A stretch of DNA of 64,000 nucleotides from Platanthera guangdongensis (lineage: Eukaryota > Streptophyta > Magnoliopsida > Asparagales > Orchidaceae): NCBI GenBank assembly GCA_039583875.1, contig CM077159.1, positions 100,429,707-100,493,706 of the forward strand. Reading direction: 5' to 3'. Positions 6,614 to 57,060 of this stretch are shown here, one piece after another. Position numbers and translations under genes: made by a program. The notes below the pieces were generated by a model. That model made no database searches, had not been told where the DNA came from, and worked only from the letters and a program-made list of their open reading frames with translations. Position 1 is the stretch's first letter. Each line of letters begins with the position of its first letter.

Positions 6614-6901
6614 GGAGAAGTCATAACCCTTAGTCAATGATATACACCACTCATAATTAAAAATTATAAAATGATGTAAAACAGGTATATGTCAACAGAG
6701 TTAAACTTAAACATGTAATAAAGCACACATGTATACTCATACAGCATTACAGAACAAACAAGAATTAGACACATTCTACTAAACAATCATGAAATATATA
6801 TTTATCAAAAACTGTTCATACATTGTTTGCAATATATTTTCAAAGATTTACAATAATGTTTAGATGTAACAGAGTACAACATTCTTCAGTCTAAGCTTAG
6901 T
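6614..6901 (-). other. Element A 3' untranslated stretch between ORF3 and PPT
   Basis: AT-rich non-coding sequence of about 290 bases. It includes TCAATGATATACA (6634-6646), which is the inverse of a sequence inside the LTR (6537-6549). Nothing else is recognised. Confidence 0.7.
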
Positions 6902-9725
6902 CTAATTCTGCTCTGGTTCTTTTATGACTATGCCTTTTCCAGCTTGCACTTTGGCCTTTACAGCAGCAGCAGCAGCAGCAGGCTCAGCTTCAGCAGTCTT
7001 CTTCCCTTTGGAGTCCTTCTTCTTCTGTTCTTCAGCCTTGATTTTTTGCCTCTCAAAGTAATGATAGGGCTTAGGAAAGTACTTGCTAGGCTCCACAGCT
7101 GTAGGAGGTAGCTTTCCTAACTTAGCCTTCCTTCTATGCTGGACAATGGCTTCCTGCCTGATTTCATGCTTCCTCCACTCTGCTTCTGAGAACCATTTAT
7201 TCCTCTCATGTGCATTGTCCTTGGCTGCTTTCCAGGCTGTGAGAATGATGTTCCTAGAAGTAGGGCTCCACTGTTCAAAATCTGGTTTTTGCTCAGCAAG
7301 TTCCCTGAACTTCTTCTTTGACAGCCTTGTCTCTTCCTCTTTGTCCAAAGCCTCTTGCATAGCAGCTGTAATAGGTTGAACAACCTTTTCCAGAACAATA
7401 TTAGGCTTACCAGCAGTTGGACTATACATTGTGCTTACATCAGCATGAACCATGTCAAAATCTGGAGGTGGATAGATCACCTGAGCTACTTCCTGTTGCT
7501 CACCTCCAAGATATGCACTTTGAATACCAGATTCAGCTACATTGTCATCATCACACAGGGGAGGATAGCCCAGTGTAGCTCTGATGGAATTAGAAATCCA
7601 TTTGGCATGGTCAGAGCTAGCTTTGACTAACACCCTCTCCCCCTTTATGACTTCTTGTGCTACATGATCTCTCACATCATCTTTTTGGAATCTGATCTGA
7701 CTGTCCAAATACCTTATGCCATCCTTAAAGAAAGGTCTAAGCTTTGTAAGCTGTTCAGAAATGACCTTCTGTGAATCTTTAATTGCAGTCTTTACAGCAG
7801 CAATTTCTTCCTGAAAGACTTTATCAAATTCAACCTTGGCAGCAGCAGAGGATGTTGAAGGTTCAGCAGACTTATTCTTGAGTTCAGTGACTATTGCATT
7901 GTGAGATGCAGTCAAATTATCATTCATCCTCAATTGATTCTCCAGCACATAGCCTTGCTTTAGTGCTATATCATCCACTTGAGTTTTTATTGTCTCTTGA
8001 TGGGTTGCCAGATAAACCACTGCATTAGCACCCTTTTGAAAACAGTCAGTCATCTCCTTTTTATTAAGGTTCATTTCAAACCTTATTGACTTGATGTCCT
8101 GTGCCAGATCCGATTGAAGTGCCTTGTGCCCTTCATCAACATAAGTTTCTATAGCCTTCCTTTGTTCATCCATCTTGATTTGCATTGCAAGCAGTAGAGC
8201 ACTGTAATCAGTGGATGGAGCTTGTTGAACTAAGGAGTGTTGAGCAACAGTTTGTAGAGCCTTCTTGTAGCTCTGGCTCCTTCTTTTGAAAACAAAGAAT
8301 TGTTTCTTCTTAGCTTGCTCAGTTTCATCATCCTCAGACTCTGAAGTACTGGCTATATCCACCCTATCCTTAGGGCTTGATAGTTTTTCAGTTTGCACAT
8401 CTTGTGCCTTCTCAGTATCTAGCCTTATAGGCTCTTCCTGAACATCCAAGTTCTCCCCTCAATAGCAGCACTCTTCTCTTCATCAGCAGCAGTCTTGTCC
8501 ATGTCAAAATCTTCTTGATCTAAATTCAGAAATAGATCTTCCATTGTATATTCTGGGGGTGACTGTGCAGGAGATGTACTGTGTTCATCAGCTACAACAG
8601 ATGTGTCTTGGAGAACAACATCTGGTTCTTGAGTTGCTTGCTGATTTTGCTGATGGTCATCAGACAAATCAGAATTTATTATAGAAAAATTGAAAGTATT
8701 AAGGTCAACAAGTACCTCTTAGATGAGGATGGTGGCTTGCTCACTCTCCAGTGTAGATGGTTCTGCTACACCTGGAAGCTCCCCTGGCTTGGATCCCTAG
8801 GGATGGGGCTAGTGTGAGGCAACTCCCCCTGGATCTCAGCTGGCTCTTGTGGAGCAGGTGACTTCTCTGCAGCCACATCTATTGGACTATCAGGAGTGAA
8901 AACAACATGTTCTTCACTGCCTGAGCTGCTGGAAGACTCCTGAGTCACAGCAGCAGTCTTCCTCTTCTTCCTGGGAGGAGAGTCTTTCTTTGAAACTTGC
9001 TTTTCTGGGGTTGGAACTTCTTTGGACAGCACTCTTTCCCATCTAGAGAATATCCTTGAGTCCATTCTCCTCATGTGATTGATTTTAGTTCCAGCAGCAG
9101 TGCTCATTACCTCTGGAATTGATCCAGCCAGGTAGAAACTTAGTATCCTGCCCAGATTGGGCTTCTTCAGACTTTCCTTCACTTTCTCAAATACAATCAT
9201 AGACCAGTCTGTTTTGAGGTTGAAGATGATTCTGGTCATAATACTGAACATAGAGGCTGACACCCTGTCATGTCCTCCTGGTTTGCTTAGTAAAACTTTG
9301 CCTACAACTTCAGACAGGAATTTGCCTTGATTATTCATTCCCTTCCTGTTGAAAACTGATCCTATTTTCATCTTAGGATCAAGACCACACCAGACCAAAG
9401 CTTCCCTGGTCTTGGATGTAGAAATTTCTTCTTCTTCTTGAACTTTAGGTAGCTGAAGTACCTTTCTCAAGGACTTGGGTGAAACCTTGACCTTGGTGCC
9501 ATGCACCCTTGACTTAATTCTGTAGCCTGAGTCATCTACAGACGCTCCAGTAAGGAATTCAATAACTTCCTTCTTCCAAATTTTGGTTGGTTCTGAAACC
9601 AAAAACTCCAATCCTGAATCGGTGACTAGGGTTACCACCGTCTTGATTTCTTGATCGCCATCGTCAAAAGCACCTCGCACGAGCTCATACCCTTCGTTAA
9701 CATTTTCCTCGAGCTTGGGAGCCAT
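6902..9725 (-). pseudogene. Element A ORF3: nuclear-type coiled-coil protein of unknown function, split by frameshifts
   Basis: The ATG at 9725 opens a 319-codon frame. The protein continues in a second frame (about 8667-8425) and a third (8449-6902, 515 codons), so two indels have broken one ORF of over 900 codons. In order it has: an N-terminal globular domain (residues 1-215, with IWKKEVIEFL and GSVFNRKGM); a basic cluster RKKRK at 252-256 that resembles a nuclear localisation signal; a Ser/Glu/Pro-rich acidic linker; a basic KRRSQSYKKAL block; long Gln/Lys/Glu coiled coils; and a conserved tail with YFPKPYHYFERQKIKAEE. I see no signal peptide or membrane segment, so it does not look like an envelope protein. 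The N-terminal part may be related to plant transposon-associated domains; I cannot search. Similar ORFs are in B, E and G. Confidence 0.85.
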
Positions 9726-10241
9726 TAGGGTTTGAAGATTTAGTCTTGAGAAGAGAGAAATGTCGACACAAGAGTTTTGGTCTCGAAACTTTTGAAAGCG
9801 TGTCGAACAAACAAAGACAGAATCCTATTTATACCTTTCTGGTTGAAGACGAACAGGCGGGATGGATTACTAAAGATGTGTCGACACTGGCAATAAGTGT
9901 CGACACTGACTGATAATGTCTCGACACTCATGTGTCGACACAAGTTTAAGTCAACAGATTTTATGTGTCGACACTTGGTTAAGTGTCGACACCACACTAC
10001 TCGACATGTAGTCGAGACTTTACTTAGAAAATTCTGAGTAAAACTTAAGTGTCGACACCTTATTGGATGTGTCGACACCTACTCGACATGTGTCGACACT
10101 AACATTCTGAAGTGTCGACACCAACTTCCTAGATGTGTCGACACCATTTTCCTGAAGTGTCGACACTTACTATTTTGTGTCGACATAGACTTGTCTATGT
10201 GTCGACACCTTTTTACTTAGCCAATTTTTAGTTCTGTAAAC
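9726..10241 (-). promoter_or_regulatory. Element A internal promoter for ORF3 (palindrome array, TATA, telo-box)
   Basis: Between the pol stop and the ORF3 ATG lies a second, smaller array of GTGTCGACAC (about 9890-10210) with starts 18-23 bp apart. Next on the minus strand comes TATAAATAGG (9824-9833), about 100 bases before the ATG, and then AAACCCTA touching the ATG. The layout copies the LTR promoter in miniature. It recurs in B and E. Independent transcription of ORF3 is inferred. Confidence 0.75.
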
Positions 10242-13200
10242 TTAGTCTAAGTTTATCATACCTAGTTCAATTTTGAACCTATTAAACTTAGCTTCTTCTA
10301 AGGGCTTAGTGAACATATCAGCTATCTGATTATCAGTTCTAACATATTCAAGTGCAATATCATTTCTTTCTACATGCTCCCTAAGAAAGTGATATTTAAT
10401 CTCAATATGTTTAGTTCTACTATGTGATACAGGATTGTTAGCTATTGAAATAGCACTAGTAGAATCACAGTAAAGTGGAGTTCTACTTACCTGAAATCCA
10501 TAGTCTTCTAACTGATGTTGAATCCACAGAAGTTGAGCACAGCAACTTCCTGCAGCTACATATTCTGACTCAGCTGTGGAAATAGCCACACTGGTTTGCT
10601 TCTTACTACTCCATGAAATGAGTCTTCCACCTAGGAATTGACAGGATCCAGTAGTGCTCTTTCTATCTTCTTTGCATCCTGCAAAGTCTGCATCTGAATA
10701 GCCTGTTAGATCAAAATCTCCATTCCTAGGGTACCAGAGGCCTAGATAAGGTGTGCCCTTTAGATATCTCAAGATTCTCTTGACTGCAGTCAAGTGAGAC
10801 TCTTTAGGGCAGGCTTGATACCTGGCACAAACACATGTAGCATACATAATGTCAGGCCTACTTGCAGTCAAGTATAGTAGGGAGCCAACTATCCCTCTAT
10901 ACAAGGTTTCATCTACAGGTTTCCCTGCATCATCCTTGCTTAGAGACATACTTGACCCCATAGGAGTCTTCATGGTACTGGATGAATCCATACCATACTT
11001 CCTTATGAGTTCTAGGGTGAACTTGGACTGACATATGGATAGACCACTTCCAGTCTGTTTAACTTGGAGACCCAAGAAAAACTTCAGTTCTCCCATACTA
11101 CTCATCTCAAATTGACTTTGCATAAGCTTTGCAAACTTTTTGCAAAGGCTACTTTCAGTAGACCCAAATATAATGTCATCTACATATATTTGGACAAGTA
11201 TGACTTTGCCTCTAGATTCCCTAAGGAATAGAGTCTTATCTATTTTCCCCCTTGAGAACTTGTTCTCAATGAGGAAACTAGATAGGGTTTCATACCAAGC
11301 TCTAGGTGCTTGTTTTAACCCATATAATGCTTTCCTAAGTCTATACACATAATGAGGTAAAGTTGGATCAACAAAACCTGCAGGCTGCTCCACATAGACT
11401 TCTTCTTTCAAGTTACCATTTAGGAATGCTGACTTCACATCCATTTGGTATACCTTGAATCCTTGATAGGTTGCATAGGCCAAGAACATCCTTATGGCTT
11501 CCAGTCTGGCTACTGGAGCAAAGGTTTGATCAAAATCAATACCTTCTTCTTGCCTATATCCTTTTGCAACCAGTCTTGCTTTATTCTTAATGATGACTCC
11601 TTGTTCATCTAACTTATTCCTATAGATCCACTTTGTTCCTATCACATTGTGATCTTTAGGTTTAGGAACCAAGTCCCATACCTTGCACCTTTTGAACTGA
11701 TTAAGCTCTTCCTGCATTGCTTCAGTCCACTGTGGATCTTGTATTGCTTCTTCAAATTTCTTTGGTTCTATTTGAGACAGAAAACTTGAATATACTACAG
11801 CATTCTGATTTCTGCTCCTTGTCTGAACACCTTGTCTTGGATCTCCAATTATCAGCTCTACTGGATGATCTCTTAGATGCCTGTTGGCTGGAGGCATCCT
11901 TACTTCTGGTTGTACTTCTACAGCATCTTCATCATGCTGAGTTCCTTGTACTTCTTCAGCTCCTGGTACATGTAGTTCTCCCCCTGGACATAAGCCATCT
12001 TCTTCTACTTGCTGTCTTGCAGCAGGTACATCTTCTATGGCTAGCTTGTCCATCTTCTTAGTAAGACCTGTGGGGCTGCATACATTGCTAGACAACTCAT
12101 TGTTAATTAGTTGTGTCTCATCAAAAACTACATGCACAGACTCCTCTACAACTTGTGTAGTCAAGTTGTAGACTCTATAAGCCTTACTATTATTGCTGTA
12201 CCCAACAAACACTCCCTCTTGGGACTTGGCAGCAAACTTAGTTAGGTAAGACTTTCCATTGTTAAGTATGAAGCATTTGCAACCAAAAATCCTGAAATAG
12301 GATAGATTTGGTTTCCTGCCTTTCACAACTTCATAGGGGGTCTTGTTTAACCTTTTAGTGATGGTAGCCCTATTTATCACATGGCATGCAGTGTTAACTG
12401 CTTCAGCCCAGAAATACTCTGGCAGTGATGAATCACTTAATAGGATTCTACCAGCCTCTATCAAGGTCCTATTTTTCCTTTCAGCAATGCCATTTTGCTG
12501 AGGTGTTCTAGGTGAAGAGAATTCTTGAAATATCCCATAGTCTTCACACAGCTTTGTCATGCTTTCAGACTGAAACTCAGTACCATGGTCACTTCTAATT
12601 TTGACCACTGTACAGTTCAATTCATTCTGAATTTGCTTAACAAAACTATAGAAGACACTAGGTGTTTCAGATTTCTGCTTTAAGAAGAACACCCAGGAAA
12701 ACCTTGAGTAGTCATCAACAACTACAAAGGTATAGACCTTCCTACCTAAGCTGTGAACTGGCATTGGACCAAATAGATCCATATGCAAGAGGTATAAACA
12801 CCTCACAGCATCTTTGTTGTCTAAGCTTCTAAAGGTGGATTTAGTCTGCTTGCCCTTTTGACAAGCTGAGCAAATGCCATCTTTGACACACTTAACTTGA
12901 GGACCATTCCTCACTAACTCTTTGCTAAAGAGTTTGCTAATAGTCTTGTAATTAAGATGGGCAAGCCTCTTGTGCCATTTGACACATTGAGAGACTGTCT
13001 CATCAGCTACAAGACACACAGGAGAACCATTGTTCTCAATCATAATGTCTAAGCAGTAGACATTCCTTTTTCTATATCCAGTCAAAATGATCTCTTGATC
13101 ACTTGACCTCTTGATATGACAACCATTTTTAACAAATGAGATGTCATACCCTACATCACTTAACTGACTTATACTAATGAGGTTGTGTTTCAACCCTTTA

Positions 13201-13409
13201 ACATAAGCCACTTGAGTAATGGTAACAAGGTTTGAAGAGATGTTACCAAACCCTTTGATGATTCCTTTTTCAGAACCACCAAAGGTCACTTTAGGACCAT
13301 TTTTGATTGGAATGTAGTCCTTCAGTAGTCCCCTAGTTCCAGTCATGTGTCTGGAACATCCACTATCCAAGTACCATGTAGGGGTATGGCCACTTGGATT
13401 CACCTGCAA
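10242..13409 (-). CDS. pol: Element A pol: protease, integrase, reverse transcriptase, RNase H
   Basis: This is an uninterrupted 1055-codon frame in Ty1/copia order. Protease has DSGC at residues 15-18. The integrase zinc finger has H146, H151, C180 and C183. The integrase core has D211, D274 and E310, followed by a GKRKP-type domain near 365-415. RT has MDVKSAF at 656-662 and the catalytic YVDD at 742-745. RNase H has SDAD at 904-907, AESEY at 946-950 and CDSTSA at 981-986. It lies in the same frame as gag, separated by one TAA codon. The true start may be at that boundary through readthrough or splicing; the ATG at 13409 is only the first methionine. All catalytic residues I can check are present, so this pol could be functional. 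Confidence 0.96.
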
Positions 13410-13415
13410 AACAAA

Positions 13416-15458
13416 TTAATGAACCTTAGAACCCAAAGTAAACTTGGGTCCTTGGTGATTGTTAGTTTGCAATTTGACATAGCTACCTGCTGGCTTTCCA
13501 ACAGGTAACTTACTACCCAACTTGGCACTGGCATTGTGCCAACAATCCAAGGCAAAGTGGCCAACCTTGCCACAACACCAGCATTCAAACTTGTTGTACC
13601 TTTGCTTAGGTACAACCTTTGCTGTCTTGACTACAGCAGGCTTGTTGAATGTTGGGGCTTTGCCCTTGGACTTGGACTGATCCTGAACAGTCCTAGCTGG
13701 TTTAATAAAACCCAATCCAGCCTTTCCTTTATGATGAACAAATTCATCAATCAAGGGTAGCACTGATTTAGGTTTTGAAAACCTAGCAACTAGCTCTCTT
13801 TCCTTCTGGAGATTTGTCTCCAGTCTCTTAATTTGATCATTCTTAAATGTAATAGTACCCATCTGAATCACAGTAATGTGTTTCAGCCTGGCTACTTCAT
13901 TCAGTTTTTGATCATACTGCTTCTCAAAATCTGTTGCAGCTGCCTTGAGATCAGCAATCTCCTTTGCCTGACTTTTGGCTAGGATCTTGCTTTTCTTATA
14001 GGCTTGCAACAGTACTTGGTATTCATCTAAGAGCTGATGAATATCTCCCTCAGATTCAGAAACACTTCCATCACTTGATGAAGATGATTCTGACTCTGAA
14101 CTAGAACTGGAATCTGAACTTAAGGTTGAACTTTGTACCTGACTAGGTCCTGGCTGCTCCAGGATTTTGGTACTTTCAGTCAATGCCATCAGTCCTTGGC
14201 ACTGAACCTCTTCTTGTTCATAGATTGATTCCATGATCTGCATAAACTCTTCTTCTTCTTCAGCAAATAGCCCTATATAGGCTTCAGCATCTGTCTCAGT
14301 GTCTGAAGAAGAAATGTCTGAAAGAGTCTTCTCATTCTTTGCAACAAAGGACTTCTCCTTCTTTCCTTTGAAGTGAGTCTTCTTTTTGTCACTGGATTCT
14401 TTCCTTCTTTCAGGACAATCTGCAATAACATGACCCTGTCTATTGCAGCAGTAACACACTATCTTAGACCCAGTTGCCTTGCTAGTCTTTGTCTTTTTCT
14501 TGTCCTTCTTTGAAGGCTTCTTCTCCTGATACTGAACTTCTTTCCCTTTGGAAAATGAAGGTCTGGACCTCCACTTGTTTCTTCTTCAGGAAATTTCTTG
14601 AAAATGTCTGGTGAATGCAGCAAAGTCTTCATCACTTTCACTGCTTGTAGACTTTGTGCTAACAGACTCATCAGATTCTGATTCAACTACCTCTGGAGGA
14701 GGAGTTGATGACTTAGTCCTTCCCTTTCTAGGTACTTCTGACTTGAAGGCAACAGTCCTTTCCCTGTGCTCAGTCCTTGTTGACTTTTCCTCCTCTTTTC
14801 TCACAGACAACTGCATCTCATAAGATAACAACTTGCCAAACAGTGTGGGAGGAGGAATTTCTCCCAACTTTGCCATTTCTCTGATGGCACAGATCTTAGT
14901 GTCCCAATCTTTAGTTAGGGACCTTAAGAACTTATCATTCAATTCATAGTTTGTGAACTCTCTTCCATAGGACATGAGTTCATTAACAATTCTGTAGAAC
15001 TTTTTGTAGCATTCAGTGATGCTATCTCCTCTTCCTTGCCTAAAGCTCTCATACTCTTGATTAAGCAAGGACTTCCTATCTTGTCTTACTTCTTCAGAAC
15101 CTTCCATGTAGACAATGAGGGTATCCCACATTTCTTTTGCTGTTTTACAGTGAATAAGGTTCTGGAAGGTGGCATCATCAATTGCACTAACTAAGATGTT
15201 CTGTGCTCTTTTGTCCATTGTAGCTAGGACAATCTCATCCTTGGTCATCTCAGAAAAATCCTTTGGAGTTCTCTGTGTAGCATCCAAGACTGAAATCTTC
15301 ATGGGCACATAAGGCCCTTCTTTGACTGTGATGTAGATCCTAGGGTCAGAGGCCTCCATGAACAGCCTTACCCTTTCTTTCCAGATTCCAAAAATCTCTT
15401 TTCTGCATATGGGCAGTTTCATTGAACCCAATTCCTTGTGATTCTCTGAAGAACCCAT
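13416..15458 (-). pseudogene. gag: Element A gag with two zinc knuckles and a coiled coil
   Basis: The ATG at 15458 begins a copia-type gag (SMKLPICRKEIFGIWKERV). It reads to 14586 and then needs a short stretch in another frame before returning to the original frame, which runs to the TAA at 13416. Against copy B this looks like two compensating indels near 14575-14600. It has two CX2CX4HX4C knuckles, CYCCNRQGHVIADC and CWCCGKVGHFALDC. They are separated by about 250 residues of Ser/Glu-rich sequence and a coiled coil (QLLDEYQVLLQAYKKSK onwards). Extended gag proteins with coiled coils are typical of Sireviruses. The capsid protein would assemble particles and bind element RNA. Confidence 0.9.
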
Positions 15459-15563: not shown

Positions 15564-17687
15564 TGAAAGATATGGTACCTAAACACCTAGAGGGGGGGGG
15601 GTGAATAGGTGACATAAACCTTTTTAAAACTTTGTTGGCAGCACAACAGTTATTTCACAGATTACTACAGCTAACAGCAATTACAGAAATCAAACAGTCA
15701 ATCCACAGCACAGCACAGCAGACACACTAATTTATAGTGGTTCCCCAATCTTTGGGTACATCCACTTTCCCCCTTCGCCTATCTAGCAGTGTACTAGATT
15801 CAACCAAACTTCTCCACTATCTCAGAACCTAACAAGGTTCCTACACCTCAGGCCCAAAGCCTTACACTCAGCCACACAGGCCTACACTCAGCCACCCAGG
15901 CCTACACTCAGCCAATTGAGGCTTACACTCAGCCAATTAAGGCCTACACTCAGAGTTCTTCAACTCCTACACTCAGGCAATCAAGCCCTACCCTCAGCCT
16001 TTATAATATAGGCTTACAATTCTCTCAGATCCAATGGATCCTACAAGTTAAAATAGAAAGTACAATAGCTAACTCTACAACTCAGAAAATAAGAGAGGAG
16101 TTGAGAGATTTCTTGAAGAGTTCTTGGAAGAACTCAGCTAGATCCAAACTGACTTAGCTTCCCTCAAAGCTTCTTGATTAGAACTGAATTAGTCTGAATC
16201 TTCTGCAGTTGTTCCTTGACCTCTGCTTCTTGAAATCCAGATGACTCTGAATTCTTCTTCTCAGCCTTAGTTCCAAAGACTGAATTCTTGGTTGGAGCTC
16301 TCTCTCTCCAACTTCTTAGATCTGCAGTTGGACTGACAGATCTTCTTGTGTTGATCCTCTGTGTATCACTTCTTGATTTAATCTGATCAACTACTTTAAG
16401 TATTCTCTCAAGCTGTAACTCTTGTTTCTCAATCACAACAACAACTGTTTCTGTAAACTATGGATGCCTATTTATAGGCTTCCTTCATGGTAACCGGCTG
16501 ATCCGGTTCATAACAGACTTCTGATTTCTCTGACAGTTGCAGTAGACCGGCTGGATCGGCAGCTGTCATGTCAACCAGTCACTTCTTGAAATTCTCTAAC
16601 TGTCAGATAGTGTCGAGACTTTCTGTTCTTAAGTGTCGACACTTATAGACTAAGTGTCGACACATGTTGTGTAAGTGTCGACACAAGTCTACAAGGTGTC
16701 GACACAATTCCTTGTATGTCTCGACACAGATTCTTCTGCATGTGTCGACACTGAAATTGAGTGTCGACACAAGTCTTGTGCTTCATTCTTTAACTGTATT
16801 CTTCTAAGTGTCGACACATGTTCTTTGTGTCGACACAACTTTATGTGTTGAAACTGTCAAGTGTCGACACTGCTTCTTGGTGTCGACACAAGTCTTCACT
16901 TTTGTTTCTTCAGCTGAGTGTCGACACATTCCTTTAGTGTCGACACTTGTACTTAGAATATTTTGTAACTTTTCTGTTCTTTGCTAAGTGTCGACACAGC
17001 TCCTTGTGTCGACACTTTCTTCAAGTGTAGAGTCTTCAACTAAGTGTCGACACATTGTGCTGAGTGTCGACACTTTCTTCAAGTGTTGACTCTCCTGGTT
17101 GTGTGTCGACACATTGTGCTGAGTGTCGACACATTCCTCAAATGCTGACTCTTCTGGTTGTGTGTCGACACATTGTGCTGAGTGTCGACACATTCCTCAA
17201 ATGCTGACTCTTCTGCATAGTGTCGACACATTGTGTTGAGTGTCGACACTTGTACTTAGATTCTGCAGACTTTTGCTGAGTGTCGACACAACTCCAAGTG
17301 TCGACACTTTCTGGTGTTGACTCAGCTCTTCTAGGTGTCGACACTTCTGCTAAGTGTCGACACAGCTTTTCTGCATTCTTCTACACTGAGTGTCGACACA
17401 GCTCCAAGTGTCGACACTTTCTGTCTGGTGTCGACTCTTCATCCCAGGTGTCGACACAATGACTCCAAGTGTCGACACTGCTTGTCTGGGTGTCGACACA
17501 AGCTTTCTCAAGTGTCGACACTTTCCCTCTGGGTGTCGACACATGGACTTAGAAACTTTTAGCTTCAGTCTAGTGAATACCTAACCTGCACAAGTAACTC
17601 AAACACACATCAAATACATTATGATGTATATCATTGAGTTAGGTGAGGCTTCTTCAAATCAGGTACATTTGACCAATGTACCCAACA
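15564..17687 (-). repeat. Element A 5' LTR (2124 bp)
   Basis: It is the partner of the left LTR with the same edges and array (about 16618-17544), TATA at 16467-16478, CCGG-type palindrome at 16492-16508 and C-tract hairpin (15584-15611). I noticed only scattered single-base and G-run differences between the two copies. Confidence 0.96.
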
Positions 17688-26787: not shown

Positions 26788-26934
26788 TGTTGGGTACATT
26801 GGTCAAATGTACCTGATTTGAAGAAGCCTCACCCAACTCAATGATATACATCATAATGTATTTGATGTATGTTTGAGTTACTTGTGCAGGTTAAGAAAGT
26901 ACTGGACTGAAGCAAAAAGTTTCTAAGTCCATGT

Positions 26935-27735
26935 GTCGACACTTGGAGCTGTGTCGACACTCAGTAAAGGAAAGTGCAGACAGAAAGTGTCGACACAAGG
27001 AGCTGTGTCGACACCCAGTGAAGCTGTGTCTACACCAGAAAGTGTCGACACTTGGAGCTGTATCGACACTCAGCAAAAGTCAGCAGAGTCAAAGTACAAG
27101 TGTCGACACTCAACACAATGTGTCGACACTATGCAGAAGAGTCAGCACTTGAAGAAAGTGTCGACACTCAACACAATATGTCGACACTCAATAGAAGAGT
27201 CAGCATTTGAAGTATGTGTCGACACCCAGAACAATGTGTCGACACACAGCTAAAGACTCAACACTTGAAGAAAGTGTCGACACAAGGAGCTGTGTCGACA
27301 CTTAGCAAAGAACAGAAAGAACAACAAATTATTCTAAGTACAAGTGTCGACACTATGGGAATGTGTCGACACTCAGCTGAAGTCTCAACGACAAGAAGGT
27401 GTGTCGACACAAGGAGCTGTGTCAACACTCAGCAAGATTCAACATAGAAGACTATGTGTCGACACCAAGAAGCAGTGTCGAAACTTGACAGATTCAACAC
27501 AAGAAGATGTGTCGACACAAAGGAGATGTGTCGACACATAGAAGAATTCAGCAAAAGCTAGAAGAACAAGTACTTGTGTCGACACTCAATTTCAGTGTCG
27601 ACACATGCAGAAGAATCTGTGTCGAGACATACAAGGAGTTGTGTCGACACCTTGTAGACTTGTGTCGACACTTACACAACATGTGTCGACACTTGGACTA
27701 TAAGTGTCGACACTTAAAGATAGAAAGTCTCGACA
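26935..27735. repeat. GTGTCGACAC palindrome array (element B 5' LTR)
   Basis: Some thirty perfect or near-perfect decamers, usually in pairs 18-22 bp apart, with GAGTCAGCA-type words between pairs. The copy in the other LTR is at 37918-38725. Reading frames such as MSTLGAVSTLSK are translations of the repeat, not genes. Confidence 0.93.
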
Positions 27736-27837: not shown

Positions 27838-27879
27838 AACCGGACCAGCCGGTTACCATGAAGAAGGCCTATAAATAGG
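27838..27879 (+). promoter_or_regulatory. LTR core promoter of element B
   Basis: An AACCGG...CCGGTT inverted repeat is followed after about 13 bases by CCTATAAATAGG. The pair is conserved in A (5379-5420, 16467-16508), E (53506-53547) and G (59851-59891). Transcription would start about 30 bases downstream, inside the LTR. Confidence 0.75.
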
Positions 27880-28907: not shown

Positions 28908-30950
28908 ATGGGTTCTTATGAGAATCACAAGGAATTGGGTTCCATGAAATTACCCATATGCAGAAAGGAGATCTTTGGGATCTGGAAAGAGAGGGTAAGG
29001 CTATTTATGGAAGCCTCTGACCCAAGAATCTACATCACAGTAAAGGAAGGGCCTTATGTGCCAATGAAGATTTCAGTATTGGATGCAAATCAGAGGACTC
29101 CAAAGGATTTCTCTGAGATGACCAAGGATGAAATTGTCCTAGCCACCATGGACAAGAGGGCACAGAACATAATAGTGAGTGCCATTGATGATGCCACTTT
29201 TCAGAACTTAATTCACTGTAAGACAGCAAAAGAGATGTGAGATACTCTCATTGTCTATATGGAAGGTTCTGAAGAAGTTAGGCAAGATAGGAAGTCCTTG
29301 CTAAATCAGGAGTATGAAAGCTTTAGGCAAGGAAAGGGTGATAGCATCACTGAGTGCTATAAGAAATTTTACAGAATAGTTAATGAACTCATGTCATATG
29401 GAAGATAGTTCACTAACTATGAATTAAATGACAAGTTCTTAAGGTCCCTAACCAAAGATTGGGACACCAAGATCTGTGCCATAAGAGAAATGGCTAAGTT
29501 GGGGGAAATTCCTCCTCCCACACTGTTTGGCAAGCTATTGTCTTATGAAATATAGTTAACAGTGAGAAAAGAGGAGGAGAAATCAACAAGGACTGAGCAC
29601 AAAGAAAGAACTGTTGCTTTCAAGACAGAAGTTCCCAGAAAGTGCAGGAATAAGTCTTCAACTCCACCTCCAGAGGTAGTTGAATCAAAGTCTGATGAGT
29701 CTGTCAGCACAAAGTCTAAGAGCAGTGAAAGTGATGAAGACTTTGCTGCTTTCACTAGACACTTTCAGAAGTTTTTGAAAAAGAAACAGTGGAGGTCAAG
29801 GCCTTCTACATCACAAGGAAAGGAAGACTCTTATCAGAAGAAGAGGTCTTCAAAGAATGACAAGAAAAGGACAAAATCAAGCAAGGCAACTGGTTCAAAG
29901 ATTGTTTGCTATTGCTGCAATAGACAGGGCCATGTTATTGCAGATTGTCCAGAGAAGAGAAGGGAATCTGGTGACAGGAAAAAGACTCACTTCAAATGGA
30001 AGAAAGAAAAGTCTTTTGTTACTAAGAAGGAGAAGACTCTATCAGATATCTCTTCTTCAGAAATTGAGTCTGAGGCTGAAGCCTACATAGGGCTGTTTGC
30101 TGAAGAAAAAGAGGAAGAATTCATGCAGATTTTGGAGTCAATTTATGAACAAGAAGACAGTTATTGCCAAGGGCTAATGGCTTTGACAGACAGTGCCAAA
30201 ATCCTGGAGCAGCCAGGACCCAGTCAGGTACAAGGTTCATGTTCAAGTTCAGTTTCTTGTTCTAGTTCAGAATCAGATTCTTCTTCATCAAGTGATGAGA
30301 ATATATCTGAGTCTGAGGAAGATATTCATCAGCTTATAGATGAATATAAGGTACTATTGCAAGCCTACAAGAAAAGCAAGACCCTAGCCAAAAGTCAGGC
30401 AAAGGAGATTGCTGATCTCAAGGCTGTTGCAACAGATTTTGAGAAGCAATTTGATCAAAAACTGAATGAGGTAGCCAGGATGAAACACATTACAGTGATT
30501 CAGATGAGAACTATCACTTATAAGAATGATCAAATTAAGAGACTGGAGATCAATCTTCAGAAAGAGAGAGAGCTTGTTGCTAGGTTTTCAAAACCTAAAT
30601 CAGTGCTACCTTTAATTGATGAATTTGTTCATCAAAAAGGTAAGGCTGGACTGGGTTTTGTTAGACCTGCAGGGACTGAGCTGTCCAAGTTTAAGTCCAA
30701 GGGCAAAGCCCCAACATTCAATAAGCCTGCTGTAGTCAAGACAGCCAAGGCAGTACCTAAGCAAAGGTACAATAAGTTTGAATGCTGGTGCTGTGGCAAA
30801 GTTGGCCATTTTGCAGTAGACTGTTGGCACAATGTGAGTGCCAAAGTGAGTTCCAAACTACCTGTTGGAAAGCCAGTAGGTAGGTTTGTCAAATTGCAAA
30901 CTAACAATCACCAAGGACCCAAGAATACTTTGGGTTCTAAGGTTCATTAA
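28908..30950 (+). pseudogene. gag: Element B gag with premature stops
   Basis: Starts at the ATG 28908 (MGSYENHKELGSMKLPICRKE). One frame holds throughout, broken by TGA at 29238, TAG at 29406 and TAG at about 29553, then open to the TAA at 30948. Two zinc knuckles are intact (CYCCNRQGHVIADC near 29910, CWCCGKVGHFAVDC near 30783), with the acidic linker and coiled coil between them. The 29238 stop replaces the TGG of copy A, a G-to-A change. The protein could not be made full-length. Confidence 0.92.
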
Positions 30951-30956
30951 TTTGTT

Positions 30957-33900
30957 TTGCAGGTGAGTCCAAGTGGCCATACCCCTACATGGTACTTGGA
31001 CAGTGGATGTTCCAGACATATGACTGGAACTAAGGGACTACTGAAGGACTACATTCCAATCAAAAATGGTCCTAAAGTGACCTTTGGGGGTTCTGAAAAA
31101 GGAATCATCAAAGGGTTTGGTAACATTTCTTCAAACTTAGTTACCAATACTCAAGTGGCTTATGTTAAAGGGTTGAAACACAACCTAATAAGTATAAGTC
31201 AATTAAGTGATGTAGGGTATGACATCTCATTTGTTAAAAATGGTTGTCATATCAAGAGGTCAAGTGATCAAGAGATCATTTTGATAGGATATAGGAAGAG
31301 AAATGTCTACTGCCTAGACATTATGATTGAGAACAATGGTTCTCCAGTTTGTCTTGTAGCTGATGAGACAGTCTCTCATTGTGTCAAATGGCACAAGAGG
31401 CTGGCCCATCTTAACTACAAGACAATTAGCAAACTCTTTAGTAAAGAGTTAGTGAGGAATGGTGCTCAAGTTAAGTGTGTTAAAGATGGCATTTGCTCAG
31501 CTTGTCAAAAGGGCAAGCAGACTAAATCCACCTTTAGAAGCATAGATAACAAAGATGCTGTGAGGTGTTTGTACCTCTTGCATTTGGATCTCTTTGGTCC
31601 AATGCCAGTTCACAGCTTAGGTAGGAAGGTCTATACCCTTGTAGTTGTAGATGACTACTCAAGGTTTTCCTGGGTGTTCTTCTTAAGACAGAAATCTGAA
31701 ACACCTAGTGTCTTCTACAGCTTTGTCAAGCAAATTCAGAATGAACTTAATAGTACTGTGGTCAAAATTAAAAGTGACCATGGTACTGAGTTTCAGTCTG
31801 AAAGCATGACAAAACTATGTGAAGACTTTGGGATATTTCAAGAATTCTCTTCACCTAGAACACCTCAGCAAAATGGCATTGCTGAGAGGAAAAATAGGAC
31901 CTTGATAGAGGCTGGTAGAACCCTATTGAGTGATACATCACTGCCAGAGTATTTCTGGGCTGAAGCAGTTAACACTGCATGCCATGTTATAAATAGGGCT
32001 ACCATCACTAAAGGGCTAAACAAGACCCCCTATGAAGTTGTGAAAGGCAGGAAACCAAACCTATCCTACTTCAGGATCTTTGGTTGCAAATGCTTAATAC
32101 TTAACAATGGGAAGTCTTACTTAACTAAGTTTGCTGCCAAGTCCCAAGAGGGAATCTTTGTTGGGTACAGTAATAATAGTAAGGCTTATAGAGTCTATAA
32201 CTTGACTACACAAGTTGTAGAAGAATCAGTGCATATAGTTTTTGATGAGACAAAACTTATTAATAATGAGTTGCCTAGCAATGTATGCAGCCCCACAGGT
32301 TTGACAAAGACAATGGACAAGCTTACTATAGAAGAGGTGCCTGCTGCAAGACAGCAAGGAGAGGAGAGTAGCTGCTGTCCAGGGGGAGAACTACATGTGC
32401 CAATTGCTGAAGAAATCCAAGGTATACAGCATGATGCAGATGCTGAAGTGGTTCAACCTGAAGTGAGGATGCCTCCAGCCCACAGGCATCTTAGAGATCA
32501 TCCAGTAGAGCTGATTATTGGAGATCCAAGACAAGGAGTTCAAACTAGGAGCAGAAATCAGGATGCTGCAATCTATTCCAGCTTTCTGTCACAAGTTGAA
32601 CCTAAGAAATTTGAAGAAGCAATACAAGATCCACAATGGACTGAAGCAATGCAAGAAGAGCTTAATCAGTTCAAGAGGTGCAAGGTCTGGGAATTGGTTC
32701 CTAAACCTAAAGACCACAATGTAATAGGAGTTAAGTGGATCTACAGGAATAAGATGGATGAACAAGGAGTCATCATTAAGAATAAAGCTAGACTGGTTGC
32801 TAAAGGATATATGCAAGAAGAAGGTATTGATTTTGATCAAACCTTTGCTCCAGTAGCCAGAATGGAAGCCATAAGAATGTTCTTGGCCTATGCAACCTAT
32901 CAAGGATTCAAGGTATACCAAATGGATGTCAAGTCAGCATTCCTAAATGGTAATTTGAAAGAAGAAGTCTATGTGGAGCAGCCTTCAGGTTTTGTTGATC
33001 CAACTCTACCTCATTATGTCTATAGACTTAGGAAAGCTTTATATGGGTTAAAGCAAGCTCCTAGAGCTTGGTATGAAACCCTATCTAGTTTCCTCATTGA
33101 GAACAAGTTCTCAAGGGAGAAAATAGATAAGACTCTATTCCTTAGGGAATCTAGAGGCAAAGTCAAACTAGTCCAAATATATGTAGTTGACATTATATTT
33201 GGGTCTACTGAAAGCAGCCTTTGCAAAAAGTTTGCAAAACTTATGCAAGGTCAGTTTGAAATGAGTAGTATGGGAGAGCTGAAGTTTTTCTTGGGTCTCC
33301 AAGTTAAACAGACTGAGAGTGGTTTGTCCATTTGTCAGTCAAAGTTCACCCTAAAACTCATAAGGAAGTATGGTATGGATTCATCCAGTACCATGAAGAC
33401 TCCTATGGGGTCAAGTATGTCTCTTAGCAAGGATGATGCAGGGAAACCTGTAGATGAAACCTTGTATAGAGGGATAGTTGGCTCCCTATTATACTTGACT
33501 GCTAGTAGACCAGACATCATGTATGCTACATGTGTTTGTGCAAGGTATCAAGCCTGCCCTAAAGAGTCTCACTTGACTGCAGTCAAGAGAATTTTGAGAT
33601 ATCTAAAGGGCACTCCCTATCTAGGCCTCTGGTACCCTAGGAATGGAGACTTTGATCTAACAGGTTATTCAGATGCAGACTTTGCAGGATGCAAAGAGGA
33701 TAGAAAGAGTACTACTGGAACCTGTCAATTCCTAGGTGGGAGACTAATTTCATGGAGCAGCAAAAAGCAGACTAGTGTGGCTATCTCCACAGCTGAGTCA
33801 GAGTATGTGGCTGCAGGAAGTTGCTGTGCTCAACTTCTATGGATTCAACATCAGCTAGAGGACTATGGATTTCAGGTAAGTAGAACTCCACTTTACTGTG

Positions 33901-34124
33901 ATTCTACAAGTGCTATTTCAATAGCTAATAACCCTGTATCACATAGTAGAACAAAACATATTGAGATTAAATATCACTTTCTTAGAGAACATGTAGAAAG
34001 AGAAGATATTTCACTTGAATATGTTAAAACAGATGAACAAGTAGCTGATATGTTTACTAAGCCACTAGAAGAAGCTAAGTTCAATAGATTCAAAATTGAA
34101 ATAGGAATGATAAACTTAGAGTAA
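30957..34124 (+). CDS. pol: Element B pol, open frame but RT catalytic residue lost
   Basis: A 1055-codon frame collinear with pol of A. Protease DSGC (15-18), the integrase HHCC and DDE residues and the RNase H acidic residues are all present. The RT catalytic box reads YVVD instead of YVDD (residues 742-745): codon 744 is GTT (about 33187) where A has GAT. The first catalytic Asp of the box is required for polymerisation in this family, so this RT should be inactive even though the frame is open. Pol begins right after the gag TAA, in the same frame. The methionine at 30957 is a convention. Confidence 0.95.
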
Positions 34125-34638
34125 GTTTACAGATTTGAAAATGACTAAGTAAAAAGGTGTCGACACATAGACAAGTCTATGTCGACACAGAATAGTGGTG
34201 TCGACACTTCAGGAAAAAGGTGTCGACACATCTAGGAATGTGGTGTCGACACTTCAGAATGTTAGTGTCGACACATGTCAAGTAGGTGTCGACACATTTA
34301 ATATGGTGTCGACACTTAAGTTTTACTCAGAATTTTTCTAAGTAAAGTCTCGACAATGTGTCGAGTTATGTTGTGTCGACACATAACCAAGTGTCGACAC
34401 ATAAACTCTGTTGACTAAACTTGTGTCGACACATATGTGTCGAGACATTATAAGTCAGTGTCGACACTTATTGCCAGTGTCGACACATGTTAAGCTAGCT
34501 GTCCCGCCTGTTCATCTTCAAAATCAGAAAGGTATAAATAGGGTTCTGTCTTTGTTTGTCCACACGCTTTCAAAGTTTCGAGACCAAAACTATTGTGTCG
34601 ACACTTCTCTTTTCTAAAGACAAATTCTCCAAACCCTA
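34125..34638 (+). promoter_or_regulatory. Element B internal promoter for ORF3
   Basis: About fifteen GTGTCGACAC or one-base variants (34157-34480) are followed by TATAAATAGG (34533-34542), about 100 bases before the ATG at 34639. AAACCCTA lies directly before the ATG. It is collinear with the spacer of A and of E. Confidence 0.75.
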
Positions 34639-37474
34639 ATGGCTCCTAAGCTTGAGGAGAACGTGAACGAGGGCTATGAGCTGGTGCGCGGCGCGTTCGA
34701 TGACGCAGATCAAGAAATCCAGTCGGTGGTAACCCTAGTCGCCAATTCTGGACTAGAATACTTGGTTTCAGAACCAACAAAGATTTGGAAGAAGGAAGTT
34801 CTTGAATTCCTTAATGGAGCTGCTGTAGATGAATCTGGATACAGAATCAAATCCAGAGTTCATGGATCTAAGGTCAAGATTTCTCCAAAAAGTCTGAGGA
34901 AGGTACTCCAGCTACCCAAAACTCAAGATGAAGAATAAGTAACTGCTTCAAAGACCAGGGAAGCTTTAACCTGGTGTGGTCTTGATCCTAAGATGAAGAT
35001 AGGATCTGTCTTTAACAGGAAAGGCATGAACAGTCAAGGAAAATTCATGTCTGAAATTGTGGGCAAGGTTATTCTCAGTAAGCCAGGAGGGCATGACAGG
35101 GTGTCTGCCTCTATGTTTGAAATTATGACAAGAATAATCTTTACTCTAAGAACAGACTGGTCTCAAGTGGTGTATGAGAAAATCAAGGAGAGTCTGAAGA
35201 AGCCCAACCTGGGCAGAATACTTAGTCTCTACCTAGCTGGTACCATACCAGAGGTAATGAATACAGCTGCAGGAAGTAAGATCAATCACATGAGAAAGAT
35301 GGATCAAAGGATCTTTTCCAGATGGGACAGGGTATTGTCCAAGGAAATGCCAACTCCAGAGAAGCCAGTTACTCAGAAAGATTCTCCTCCAAGGAAGAAA
35401 AGGAAGACAGCTGCTGTGACACAGGAGTCCTCCAGTAGTTCAGGGAGTGAAGAACAAGTTGTTTTCACTCCTGATGCTCAAGAGGAAGTGACTGCAGAGA
35501 AGACCCCTGCTGCTCAAGATGAAGCTGAGATCCAGGGGGAGCTGCCTTAAGCTAGCCCCATCCATAAGGATCACAGCCAGGGGGAGCTTCCAGTAGTAGA
35601 AGAACCATCTACTCTGTGCAGTGAGCAAGCCACCATCATTATCCAAGAGGTACTCACTGACCTAAAAACTTTAGACTATATTATAGAAGATGCTAATTTG
35701 TCTGATGTCCATCAGCAAACTCAGCTAGACAGTCAAGTTCCAGATGTTGTTTTAGAAGACACATCTGCTGTAGTTCAAGATGATACTTCTCAATTGGTTG
35801 AAGAACCAAGAACTTCTCCTGCCCAGTCTCCACCTGAATATACAATGGAAGATTTGTTTCTAAATCTAGATCAAGAAGATTTTGATATGGACAAGGATGC
35901 TCCTGCTGAAGATAAGAGTGCTGCTGCTGAGGGGGAGCAACTGACAGTTCTGGAAGAGCCTATTAGGCTAGAAACTGAGCAAGCACCTGATGTGCAACCT
36001 GAAAAGCCACAAAGCCCTAAGGACAGAGTTGATATTGCCAGCACCTCTGCCTCTGAAGATGAGGAGAGTGCTAGGGCCAAGAAGAAGAAACTCTATGTCT
36101 TCAAGAGGAGAAGCCAGAGTTATAAGAAAGCTCTGCAATCTATAGCCCCACAGCCTATAGTTCAACAAGCTTCAACAGTTGATTATAGTGCTTTGATGAT
36201 TGCCATGCAGATCAAGTTGGATGAGCAAAGGAAGGCAATAGAGGCTTATGTGGATGAAGGGCACAAGTCCCTATAGTTTGATCTTGCACAAGATATAAAA
36301 TCTATAAGGTTTGAAATGAACCTGAACAAGAAGGAGATGACTGACTGCTTCCACAAGGGTGGGAATGCAGTAGTCTATTTGGCAACTCACCAGGAGAAGA
36401 TCAAGGCTCAGGTAGATGATGTAGCATTAAAGCAAGGATATGTGCTGGAGAATCAGTTAAGAATGAATGATAATTTGACTGCCTCCCATAGTGCTATAGT
36501 CACTGAGTTGAAGAATAAGTCTGCTGAACCTTCTACATCTGCTGCTGCAGTTAAGGCTGACTTTGATAAAGTATTTCAAGCTGAGATTACTGCTGTTAAG
36601 TCTGCTATTAAAGATTCCCAGAAAGTCATCTCTGAACAACTTACAAAGCTGAAACCATTTTTTAAAGAGGGAATCAGGTATTTGGACAGTCATATAAGGT
36701 TTCAAAAGGATGATGTCAGAGACCATATGGCCAGAGAAGTCATAAGGGGAGAGAGTATTAGTCAAGCTAGCTCTGACCATGCCAAATGGATATCCAACTC
36801 CATCAGAGCTACACTGGGCTATCCCCCACTCTGTGATGATGATAATGTTGCTGAATCAGGGATTCAAACTGCCTATCTTGGAGGTGAGCAAGTAGAAGTA
36901 GCTCAAGTGATTTATCCACCTCCAGATTTTGACATGGTTCATGCAGATGTAAGCACAATGTATAGCCCAACTGCAGGGAAGTCAAATGTTATTCTGGAAA
37001 AGGTTGTTCAACCTATTTCTGAAGCTCTGCAAGAGGCTCTGAACAAAGAAGAAGAGACAAGGTTGTCAAAGAAGAGGTTTAGGGAACAAGCAGAACAAAA
37101 GCCAGATTTTGAACAGTGGAGCCCTACCTCTAGAAATATAATTTTAACTGCCTGGAAAGCTGCTAAGGACAATGCTCATGAAAGGAACAAGTGGTTCTCT
37201 GAAGCAGAATGGAGGAAACATGAAATAAGACAAGACCATTGTTCAATATAGAAGAAGCTAAAGATGAAAGCTACCTCCTACTGCAGTGGAGCCTAGAAAG
37301 TACTTCCCTAAGCCATATCATTATTTTGAGAGGCAGAAAATTAAAGCAGAAGAGCTGAAGAAGAAGGACTTAAAAGGCAAGAAGCCTGCTGATGCTGCAA
37401 CTGCTGAAGCCACTGTCAAAGCTCAAGTCCAAGCTGGAAAGGGAATAGTTATCAAAGAACCAGATCAGAAATAG
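34639..37474 (+). pseudogene. Element B ORF3 (long single frame with stops)
   Basis: MAPKLEENVNEGYELVRGAF starts at 34639. Pieces at 34639-34938, 34993-35550, 35698-36276 and 36316-37251 are all in one frame, so this copy shows that ORF3 is a single ORF of about 940 codons. It is broken by TAA at 34936, TAA at 35548 and TAG at 36274, with small deletions near 37235-37285 shifting the last 62 codons (37286-37474). N-domain, RKKRK cluster, acidic linker, KRRSQSYKKAL, coiled coils and YFPKPYHYFERQK tail are as in A. Confidence 0.88.
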
Positions 37475-49017: not shown

Positions 49018-49512
49018 TTTAACAATTGGCTAAGTAAAATAGTGTCGACACACATAGTTGTTTGTGTCAACACATAGAGGTGGTGTCGACATTTTAGAGA
49101 AATGGTGTCGACACATCTAGACAGTCAGTGTCGACACTTCAAAGAATTAGTGTCGACACATGCAGAGTAGGTGTCGACACATCCAGGGTGTTGTCGACAC
49201 TTAGGATTAACACAGAATTCGTCGAGTGAAGTATCGACTAATCGTCGAGCGTAGATGTATAAGTGTCGACACATATATTCTGTCGACTATATTTGTGTCG
49301 ACACATAGTTGTCGAGACATTAGAAGTAAGTGTCGACACTTTTCAACAGTGTCGACACATTTCAAGTATTTTGTCGTGCTTTTTCACCTTTGATTTTAGA
49401 AAGGTATAAATAGGTTTTCACCATTGTTTGTCGACACGCTCACCATAGTTTCGAGACCAAACTTGTGTGTCGAAAATTCTCTTCTCTAAATTCAAAATTT
49501 CTTCAAACCCTA
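49018..49512 (+). promoter_or_regulatory. Element E internal promoter for ORF3
   Basis: GTGTCGACAC array (49040-49370) including a patch with GAATTCGTCGAG and TCGTCGAGCG (about 49216-49245), so both palindrome types occur. TATAAATAGG follows at 49405-49414, about 100 bases before the ATG at 49513. AAACCCTA touches the ATG. Confidence 0.75.
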
Positions 49513-56079: not shown

Positions 56080-57060
56080 CCTGTGAGGAGCTGAGCTTGG
56101 TGGGTGGTTGGGAGTAGTCGACACCCAGCATGAGTCAAGCTCAACTGGTGGGGGGAATCAGTCAACACCCAACAGGAGCCAAGCTCAACTGAGGGTGGTG
56201 TGAGTCGACTCGGGGAGGCAAGTAGTCGGTCTGCAGGAGAGGAGCTCGTACAAAGATCTCAGACTATGACATCACTCAAGTGAGGATCTTGATCTCACTC
56301 GAGGAGGTCTTTGGCCAATATACAACTCGTGCAGGGACTTGGACTTACGACGACACTACCACTTGAGGACTTGAATGTTGGAGTCGACATCTCTCAGGAG
56401 CCTTGGTCAACTAGAGTGGTGTAGGTCGACTCAGGGAGGCAAGTAGTCGGTCTGCAGGAGAGGAGCTCGTATAGAGATCTCGGACTACGGTATCACTCCA
56501 GCGACGATCTTGATTTTACTCGAGGAGGTCCTTGTCCAATATGGAACTCGTGTAGGGACTTGGACTTACGGCGACACTGCGACTCGAGGACTTGAATATT
56601 GGAGTCGACATCTCTCAGGAGCCTTGCTTAACTAGAGTGATGTAGGTTGACTCTGGGAGGCAAGTAGTCGGTCTGTAGGAGAGGAGCTCGTACAGAGATC
56701 TCGAACTACGGCATCACTCCAGCGAGGATCTTGATCTCACGTGAGGAGGTCCTTGGCCAATATACAACTCGTGCAGGGACTTGGACTTACGACGACACTG
56801 CCACTTGAGGACTTGAATGTTGGAGTCGACAGCTCTTAGGAGCCTTACTCAACTAGAGTGATGTAGGTCGACTCGGGGAGGAAAGTAGTCGGTCTGCATG
56901 AGAGGAGCTCGTACAGAGATCTCGGACTACGACATCACTCCAGCGAGGATCTTGATCTCACTCGAGGAGGTCTTTGTCCAATATGCAGTAGAGAAGCTCG
57001 TGTAGGGACTTGGACATACGACGACACTACCACTCGAGGACTTGATATGTTGGAGTCGTT
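56080..57060 (-). repeat. 221-bp tandem repeats (about four units)
   Basis: The word AGTAGTCGGTCTG recurs at 56221, 56442, 56663 and 56884, each exactly 221 bases apart. The surrounding text (GGAGCTCGTA, GACTTGGACTTACG, CTCACTCGAGGAGGTC) is repeated with substitutions. The units lie downstream of a minus-strand Tat-like integrase, in the position of the 3' untranslated region. Tat/Ogre elements are known to carry tandem repeats there. Confidence 0.9.

Follow-up and report, generated by a model that had tools for sequence, protein, structure and literature searches.

A putative TATA-type internal promoter upstream of ORF3 in Sirevirus elements of Platanthera guangdongensis

How is the third open reading frame (ORF3) of a plant retrotransposon expressed from its position behind pol? 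The question is raised by a 64-kb stretch of the Platanthera guangdongensis genome (the window, meaning the whole stretch analysed), which contains the related retrotransposon copies A, B, E and F, the spacer of F lying just outside. The pol stop and the ORF3 ATG are separated by 516 nt in A [9726-10241 (-)], 514 nt in B [34125-34638 (+)] and 495 nt in E [49018-49512 (+)]. The original prediction that these spacers hold a second palindrome array and a TATA box was confirmed, and its spacer coordinates proved exact. The exact 10-mer GTGTCGACAC occurs 202 times in the whole window, against 0.01 expected from shuffles, with 33 and 24 copies in the 5' LTRs of A and B and 12, 13 and 9 in the spacers of A, B and E. 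The last exact palindrome of each spacer ends 44-46 nt from the TATA sequence TATAAATAGG, which had been placed about 100 bases before the ORF3 ATG and is found 108 (A), 106 (B) and 108 nt (E) upstream of it. By an order-2 Markov estimate the chance of TATAAATAGG is 0.0005 per 500-nt spacer strand; the F spacer also has it. Helical phasing of the palindromes was discarded as weak, with a best R of 0.55 (LTRs, 9.5 bp) and 0.61 (spacers, 11 bp) among four periods tried.

By the features tested, A, B, E and F are Sireviruses (Ty1/copia). The pol frame of A has the copia domain order, integrase before reverse transcriptase (rve 207-303, then RVT_2 576-817). The PPT AGGGGGAG lies at position -10 from the 3' LTR in A and B, as expected of a Sirevirus, and three (A) and four (B) copies of AGGGGGAG are found within 2.3 kb of that LTR. 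Near their end all six LTRs have a C-rich stretch followed by (T/C)CTAGGTG, which also belongs to the Sirevirus definition. The Sirevirus PBS is defined as TATCAGAGC after CA and ATTGG, with G allowed at the second base; the PBS region of A and B reads CA-AGTGG-TATCAAAGC and differs from TATCAGAGC by one base. A high-copy palindrome upstream of both the LTR TATA and ENV, the Sirevirus RM, is present, without the CGG-CCG core of that motif, which GTGTCGACAC does not contain. This core has one published exception, Tnd-1 (PMC2829016). The Vitis motif CGGTCGACCG and GTGTCGACAC have GTCGAC in common. A and B are judged to be young elements from the identity within their LTR pairs, 99.4% and 98.1% respectively. 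A tandem repeat with a period of ~221 bp and units 88-90% alike lies between E and F (56173-57058).

The reading we prefer, at a probability of about 0.78, is that a TATA-type internal RNA polymerase II promoter in the pol-ORF3 spacer makes a separate short ORF3 mRNA and shares an upstream palindrome-reading factor with the LTR. A factor reading GTGTCGACAC would bind the spacer array, and TATAAATAGG would set the start ~31 nt downstream, within a conserved stretch whose sequence is TCGACACGCT (or CACT) for families A and P and TCGACTACGCT for Q. P and Q are two diverged ORF3 families of the same genome, found by protein with the queries P0001 and P0002 (59% and 57% identical to the A ORF3 piece, respectively). 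The predicted leader would be ~76 nt long and usually free of ATG. Because the same palindrome also precedes the LTR TATA, genomic RNA and ORF3 mRNA could be driven together by a single factor of host or element origin. The transcription start, factor binding and co-regulation of ORF3 and LTR output we infer from features of the sequence, and the claim that ORF3 has its own promoter is well supported, on comparative sequence evidence, by the TATA footprint, its fixed distance to a conserved start region, a CpG island across the predicted start and the seven to eight in-frame stops. The features are collected in Table 1.

Table 1. Positions of the features discussed, numbered from the first base of the window
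Feature	Position	Strand	Basis
A pol open frame (integrase then RVT_2), zero CpG	10242..13409	-	ORF list, domain matches, CpG counts
A ORF3, first open piece; matches PF20167 weakly and has an NLS-like basic cluster but no transmembrane helix	8766..9725	-	
A second palindrome array, 12 exact GTGTCGACAC	9870..10210	-	exact-motif counts
A TATA box TATAAATAGG, putative ORF3 promoter	9824..9833	-	motif and cross-family conservation
A predicted start region TCGACACGCT, A of CA at 9801	9796..9808	-	start predicted from sequence
A TATA and predicted leader to ORF3 ATG, without intervening ATG	9726..9833	-	
A CpG island, array via TATA to ~+200 of ORF3; body nearly CpG-free	9525..10210	-	CpG counts
B second palindrome array	34157..34486	+	13 exact GTGTCGACAC
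B TATA box TATAAATAGG	34533..34542	+	
B predicted start region (A of CA 34564) and leader, ORF3 ATG 34639, no ATG between	34543..34638	+	
E second palindrome array	49042..49358	+	9 exact GTGTCGACAC
E TATA box TATAAATAGG	49405..49414	+	
E predicted start region (A of CA 49436) and leader, ORF3 ATG 49513, no ATG between	49415..49512	+	
A 5' LTR TATA box (comparison); array 16633-17542	16467..16476	-	
B 5' LTR TATA box (comparison); array 26933-27713	27870..27879	+	

In an alignment of close copies, its 58 rows made up of A, B and E plus 55 distinct loci, TATAAATA is invariant in all 57 rows with data; the sole row without data at the TATA, L019, has the box in its separately retrieved sequence. 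The mean minor-base fraction over the 58 rows is 0.0025 in the palindromes, 0.0274 between them and 0.0422 in the gap before the TATA; downstream it is 0.0010 in AGAAAGGTATAAATAGG, 0.0335 in the subsequent leader, 0.0011 in AAACCCTAATGGCTCC and 0.0537 at the 5' end of ORF3. Many copies are near identical, and the conservation of the TATA in L001-L030 is biased because the query with which they were retrieved itself contains it; L031-L060, retrieved by ORF3 protein, are not so biased. The sequence AAACCCTA abuts the ORF3 ATG in A [9718-9733 (-)], B [34631-34646 (+)], E [49505-49520 (+)] and F and was not found exactly in the P and Q copies shown. We take it to be a telobox-like motif; such motifs are common near plant gene starts.

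Upstream stretches were retrieved for 20 P copies, hand-picked from 101 scored candidates, and for 16 Q copies from 106. TATAAATAGG is present in 18 of the 20 P copies [the remainder being L069, with TATAAATTGG, and L071, which is rearranged and has neither array nor TATA] and in 14 of the 16 Q copies (L101 has TATAAATTGG and L107 TATAAATAAG); all 16 Q copies have TATAAAT. The count of TGTCGACA is 6-13 in 19 of the 20 P stretches (0 in L071) and 5-9 in 15 of the 16 Q stretches; the single copy in L100 goes with an upstream part that has apparently been replaced and a TATA that is kept. At 12 control loci with the same Pfam domain, which we take to be gypsy/Athila-type (integrase-like peptides in 7 of 12), no array was found, nor any TATA-type match within 690 nt upstream of the domain.

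A TATA-type Pol II promoter has its TATA at a fixed distance from a pyrimidine-purine start, and at the level of sequence this arrangement is found here. The comparison covered 4 copies of the A group, 18 of P and 15 of Q, and copies of one family are not independent of each other; L071, L075 and L109 were left out of the spacing measurements because their ATG could not be placed by rule. Between families the TATA 10-mer is 0.98-0.99 identical, with flanks near chance (0.28-0.37 at -40..-16 and 0.22-0.48 at +11..+24) and an identity of 0.55-0.78 at +25..+33. A TCGAC-type site (loose pattern) stands at a distance of 26 from the TATA in every P and Q copy measured (18 of 18 and 15 of 15, respectively); within the A group the distance is 26 in E and F and 27 in A, and B has TCCAC there. 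Of the 23 A-group and P copies, 22 have CA at +31 or +32 (the exception is L079). In the Q copies CTA at +31..+33 replaces CA, a point against the promoter reading. A distance-aware scan, in which an identical 8-mer was sought within 10 nt of the same ATG distance, ranked TATAAATA first of the 413 8-mers in the last 420 nt of copy A, its share being 1.00 in the A group, 0.94 in P and 0.93 in Q. The interval from +32 to the ORF3 ATG is free of ATG in 29 of 37 copies (A group 3/4, P 16/18, Q 10/15); an extra leader ATG, present at ~+33 in five of 15 Q copies and also found in F, L065 and L079, counts against the promoter reading. As judged from these alignments, the TATA 10-mer with its fixed spacing is a footprint and not only a product of descent.

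The serious rival is splicing. ORF3 would then come from a spliced LTR-initiated RNA, with a pyrimidine-rich YAG immediately before TATAAATAGG as the acceptor, and the conserved stretch would begin the last exon. Such a YAG, with at least 13 pyrimidines in 20, was seen 105-114 nt upstream of the ATG in A, B, E, L064, L066, L068 and L074, in a scan of 11 of the 37 copies that included four P copies, three Q copies and F; it is missing in F and in the Q copies L096, L097 and L102, all of which keep the TATA. Donor-like GTAAG sites are present in the leaders of A and B, and env-like ORFs are spliced in Bagy2, as cited in PMC7264820. Splicing leaves unexplained, however, the fixed TATA-to-TCGAC spacing across near-random sequence and the CpG island over the predicted start, and we consider it unlikely as the source of the ORF3 message, although splicing and an internal promoter could both operate. 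Among the Platanthera zijinensis ORF3 gene models, P0001 lacks ~19 residues and P0003 also has an RVT_2 domain; P0001, P0002 and P0003 look like annotation artefacts and not like evidence for splicing.

ORF3 might also be translated from the full-length genomic RNA through stop suppression, reinitiation or an internal ribosome entry site, and stop suppression has been reported for SIRE1 (as cited in PMC2829016). When the pol frame is followed through the spacers of A, B and E it meets seven to eight stops, on which ground simple readthrough from pol was rejected; the three spacer lengths do not hold one frame, and 6 (A), 10 (B) and 3 (E) ATGs stand upstream of ORF3 within the spacer. Translation from genomic RNA would also leave the TATA footprint unaccounted for, and we hold it to be highly improbable.

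The internal promoter that we favour had been described as a miniature of the LTR promoter with nearly the same TATA box. The LTRs of A and B do carry TATAAATAGG, whereas those of E and F carry TATATAAAG, as do both P LTR regions and one of the two Q regions (three of the four other-family regions sampled, whose assignment as 3' LTRs is based on where they lie and on their array and not on a mapping of both LTRs); the spacers retain TATAAATAGG. No clear TATA box was found in the other Q LTR region, L113. From the last palindrome to the TATA there are 156 nt in the 5' LTRs of A and B, as against 44-46 nt in the spacers. The likeness to a miniature thus holds for the palindrome array, which is common to both, and fails for the TATA gap and the flanks, as it does for the TATA box in most groups. 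That the spacer TATA is a copied LTR TATA was rejected, the boxes differing in most groups. Because both the boxes and the array-TATA gap differ, the putative ORF3 promoter would be co-wired with the LTR via the palindromes and not be an LTR copy; on this comparison the two core promoters are separate and evolving separately.

The same comparison bears on a passive origin of array and TATA, as an old LTR fragment or as a chromatin or recombination element, the TATA being kept by recent amplification or gene conversion. The many near-identical copies and the occurrence of the same palindrome in the LTR would fit such an origin; against it, three ORF3 families whose flanks are near chance identity retain the TATA and its spacing, and conversion between LTR and spacer TATA is argued against because E, F, both P regions and one of the two Q regions have unlike boxes in LTR and spacer. 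We therefore give a passive origin very little credence.

The putative internal promoter also lies within an unusual distribution of CpG. A has no CpG over 5.2 kb [10242-15458 (-)] and B none in 29562-34124 (+), CAG and CTG being common, and the pol frame of A uses no CGN, ACG, GCG, CCG or TCG codon. The ORF3 body of A [6900-9525 (-)] has a single CpG, and the bodies of E and F have 0.02-0.08 of expectation. In A and B, CpG comes close to expectation in two places only: in the LTR arrays as far as about the TATA, and in the stretch that begins with the spacer palindromes, extends to about +100 of ORF3 and has tailed off by +200. In a set of 60 loci, at least four of which repeat copies already counted, the observed/expected ratio relative to the ORF3 ATG is 0.00-0.04 at -1500..-500 and 0.82-1.45 at -500..+100; beyond +100 the next two bins give 0.45 and 0.39, followed by 0.02 at +200 and 0.00-0.03 to +1500. 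The CpGs at -150 to -100 and within ORF3 are mostly outside palindromes. Across A, B, E and F, 18 CpG sites occur within the first 300 nt of ORF3, ten of them in a single copy, and these sites turn over, because only one is common to all four; the CpGs at the 5' end of ORF3 look tolerated rather than individually selected. The CpG islands of LTR and spacer are not alike, because the CpG-rich part of the LTR ends at about the TATA whereas the spacer island runs past the predicted start; the CpG richness of the LTR may reflect only selection on the palindromes.

The P and Q bodies have 0.02-0.11 of the expected CpG in seven of eight stretches (L118, at 0.77, was set aside as it has no recognisable pol), and the upstream 420 nt have 0.58-1.60. 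A purge this complete is not genome-wide, since the 12 gypsy/Athila-type control loci, which come from this genome and share the Pfam domain, have 0.96-1.27 of the expected CpG and other stretches of the window 0.28-0.75; on these counts it is family-specific. TpG and CpA are raised in the bodies (1.23-1.37), and several stretches with milder CpG loss likewise have TpG at 1.13-1.24. We read the state of the body as a sign that it was long methylated or that CpG was avoided there, and the ORF3-promoter region as having long been free of methylation, and we infer hypomethylation around the ORF3 promoter. One-off TGTCGACA variants are CpG transitions in 19 of 61 cases in P (L062-L081), 31 of 96 in Q (L096-L111) and 0 of 9 in the A group; those in P and Q would fit methylation of the arrays once they had been silenced. 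A literature search on CpG depletion in plant LTR elements, with subscription journals mostly outside it, returned nothing to the point, which is no proof of absence.

What ORF3 encodes bears on the factor that would read the palindromes. The N-terminal ORF3 piece of A matches PF20167 weakly (E 6.3e-5, 23.4 bits, cut-off 45), and AlphaFold2 gave a mean pLDDT of 45.5 for residues 1-240. Many copies in the family have long open ORF3 frames. The transmembrane helix of a retroviral-type envelope was not found in five open ORF3 pieces, which represent part of ORF3 (maximum 19-residue hydropathy 1.08). NLS-like basic clusters are present, PRKKRKT in A and KK...VFKRRSQ in A, F and P0001. Hydropathy and basic clusters lean against an envelope and would be compatible with a nuclear role. 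In viral contigs, 116 stretches matched the pattern for ORF3 relatives and none was confirmed. By analogy with Tas and VANC, ORF3 might be a nuclear factor specific to the element, recognising GTGTCGACAC both in the LTR and at the promoter of ORF3 itself, in an autoregulatory anti-silencing loop: with the body cleared of CpG and CpG kept in the two promoters, CG methylation would act only there and the factor would keep the islands open. We regard this loop as speculative and rather doubtful.

The idea of an internal promoter and the array upstream of ENV are not new. For Sireviruses, PMC2829016 (Bousios et al. 2010) describes palindromes in the LTR and in a cluster upstream of ENV, CpG islands at the two sites and an LTR TATA; it supports an internal-promoter hypothesis credited to Peterson-Burch and Voytas (2002) and states that the promoter was not conclusively identified. 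The elements described here resemble those Sireviruses in the palindromes upstream of LTR TATA and ENV, the CpG islands and the proposed internal promoter, but differ in that TATA and start are footprinted in three families, the CGG-CCG core is missing and the remainder of the element is nearly CpG-free. The foamy virus internal promoter with Tas (PMC7390438) is likewise a second promoter before accessory genes, with a shared factor for both promoters (here a proposal); it belongs to an animal retrovirus and drives a known transactivator, whereas the role of ORF3 is putative. Gene23 of maize Grande (as cited in PMC7264820) is an extra ORF of a plant LTR retrotransposon with its own promoter, and is nuclear according to the cited title, but it is an antisense gene, and the available text of PMC7264820 describes no palindrome array. 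In VANDAL elements (PMC10398659) short noncoding motif repeats of a plant transposon are tied to loss of methylation; VANDAL is, however, a DNA transposon, and VANC is reported to be located on its motifs, whereas binding by ORF3 is putative. Three findings we take to be new: that TATA and start leave a footprint across families, that this footprint is independent of the LTR TATA, and that a body almost without CpG has an island over the ORF3 start; none of the three was found in a literature search whose reach excluded most subscription journals.

The expression of the third ORF in Sireviruses has been left open in print, and a specific TATA, a predicted start and the boundaries of a CpG island can now be given for it. 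If the proposed promoter is real, one palindrome-reading factor could couple the output of genomic RNA and of ORF3, and the contrast between CpG-poor body and CpG-rich promoters would record, in readable form, where these elements have escaped methylation.
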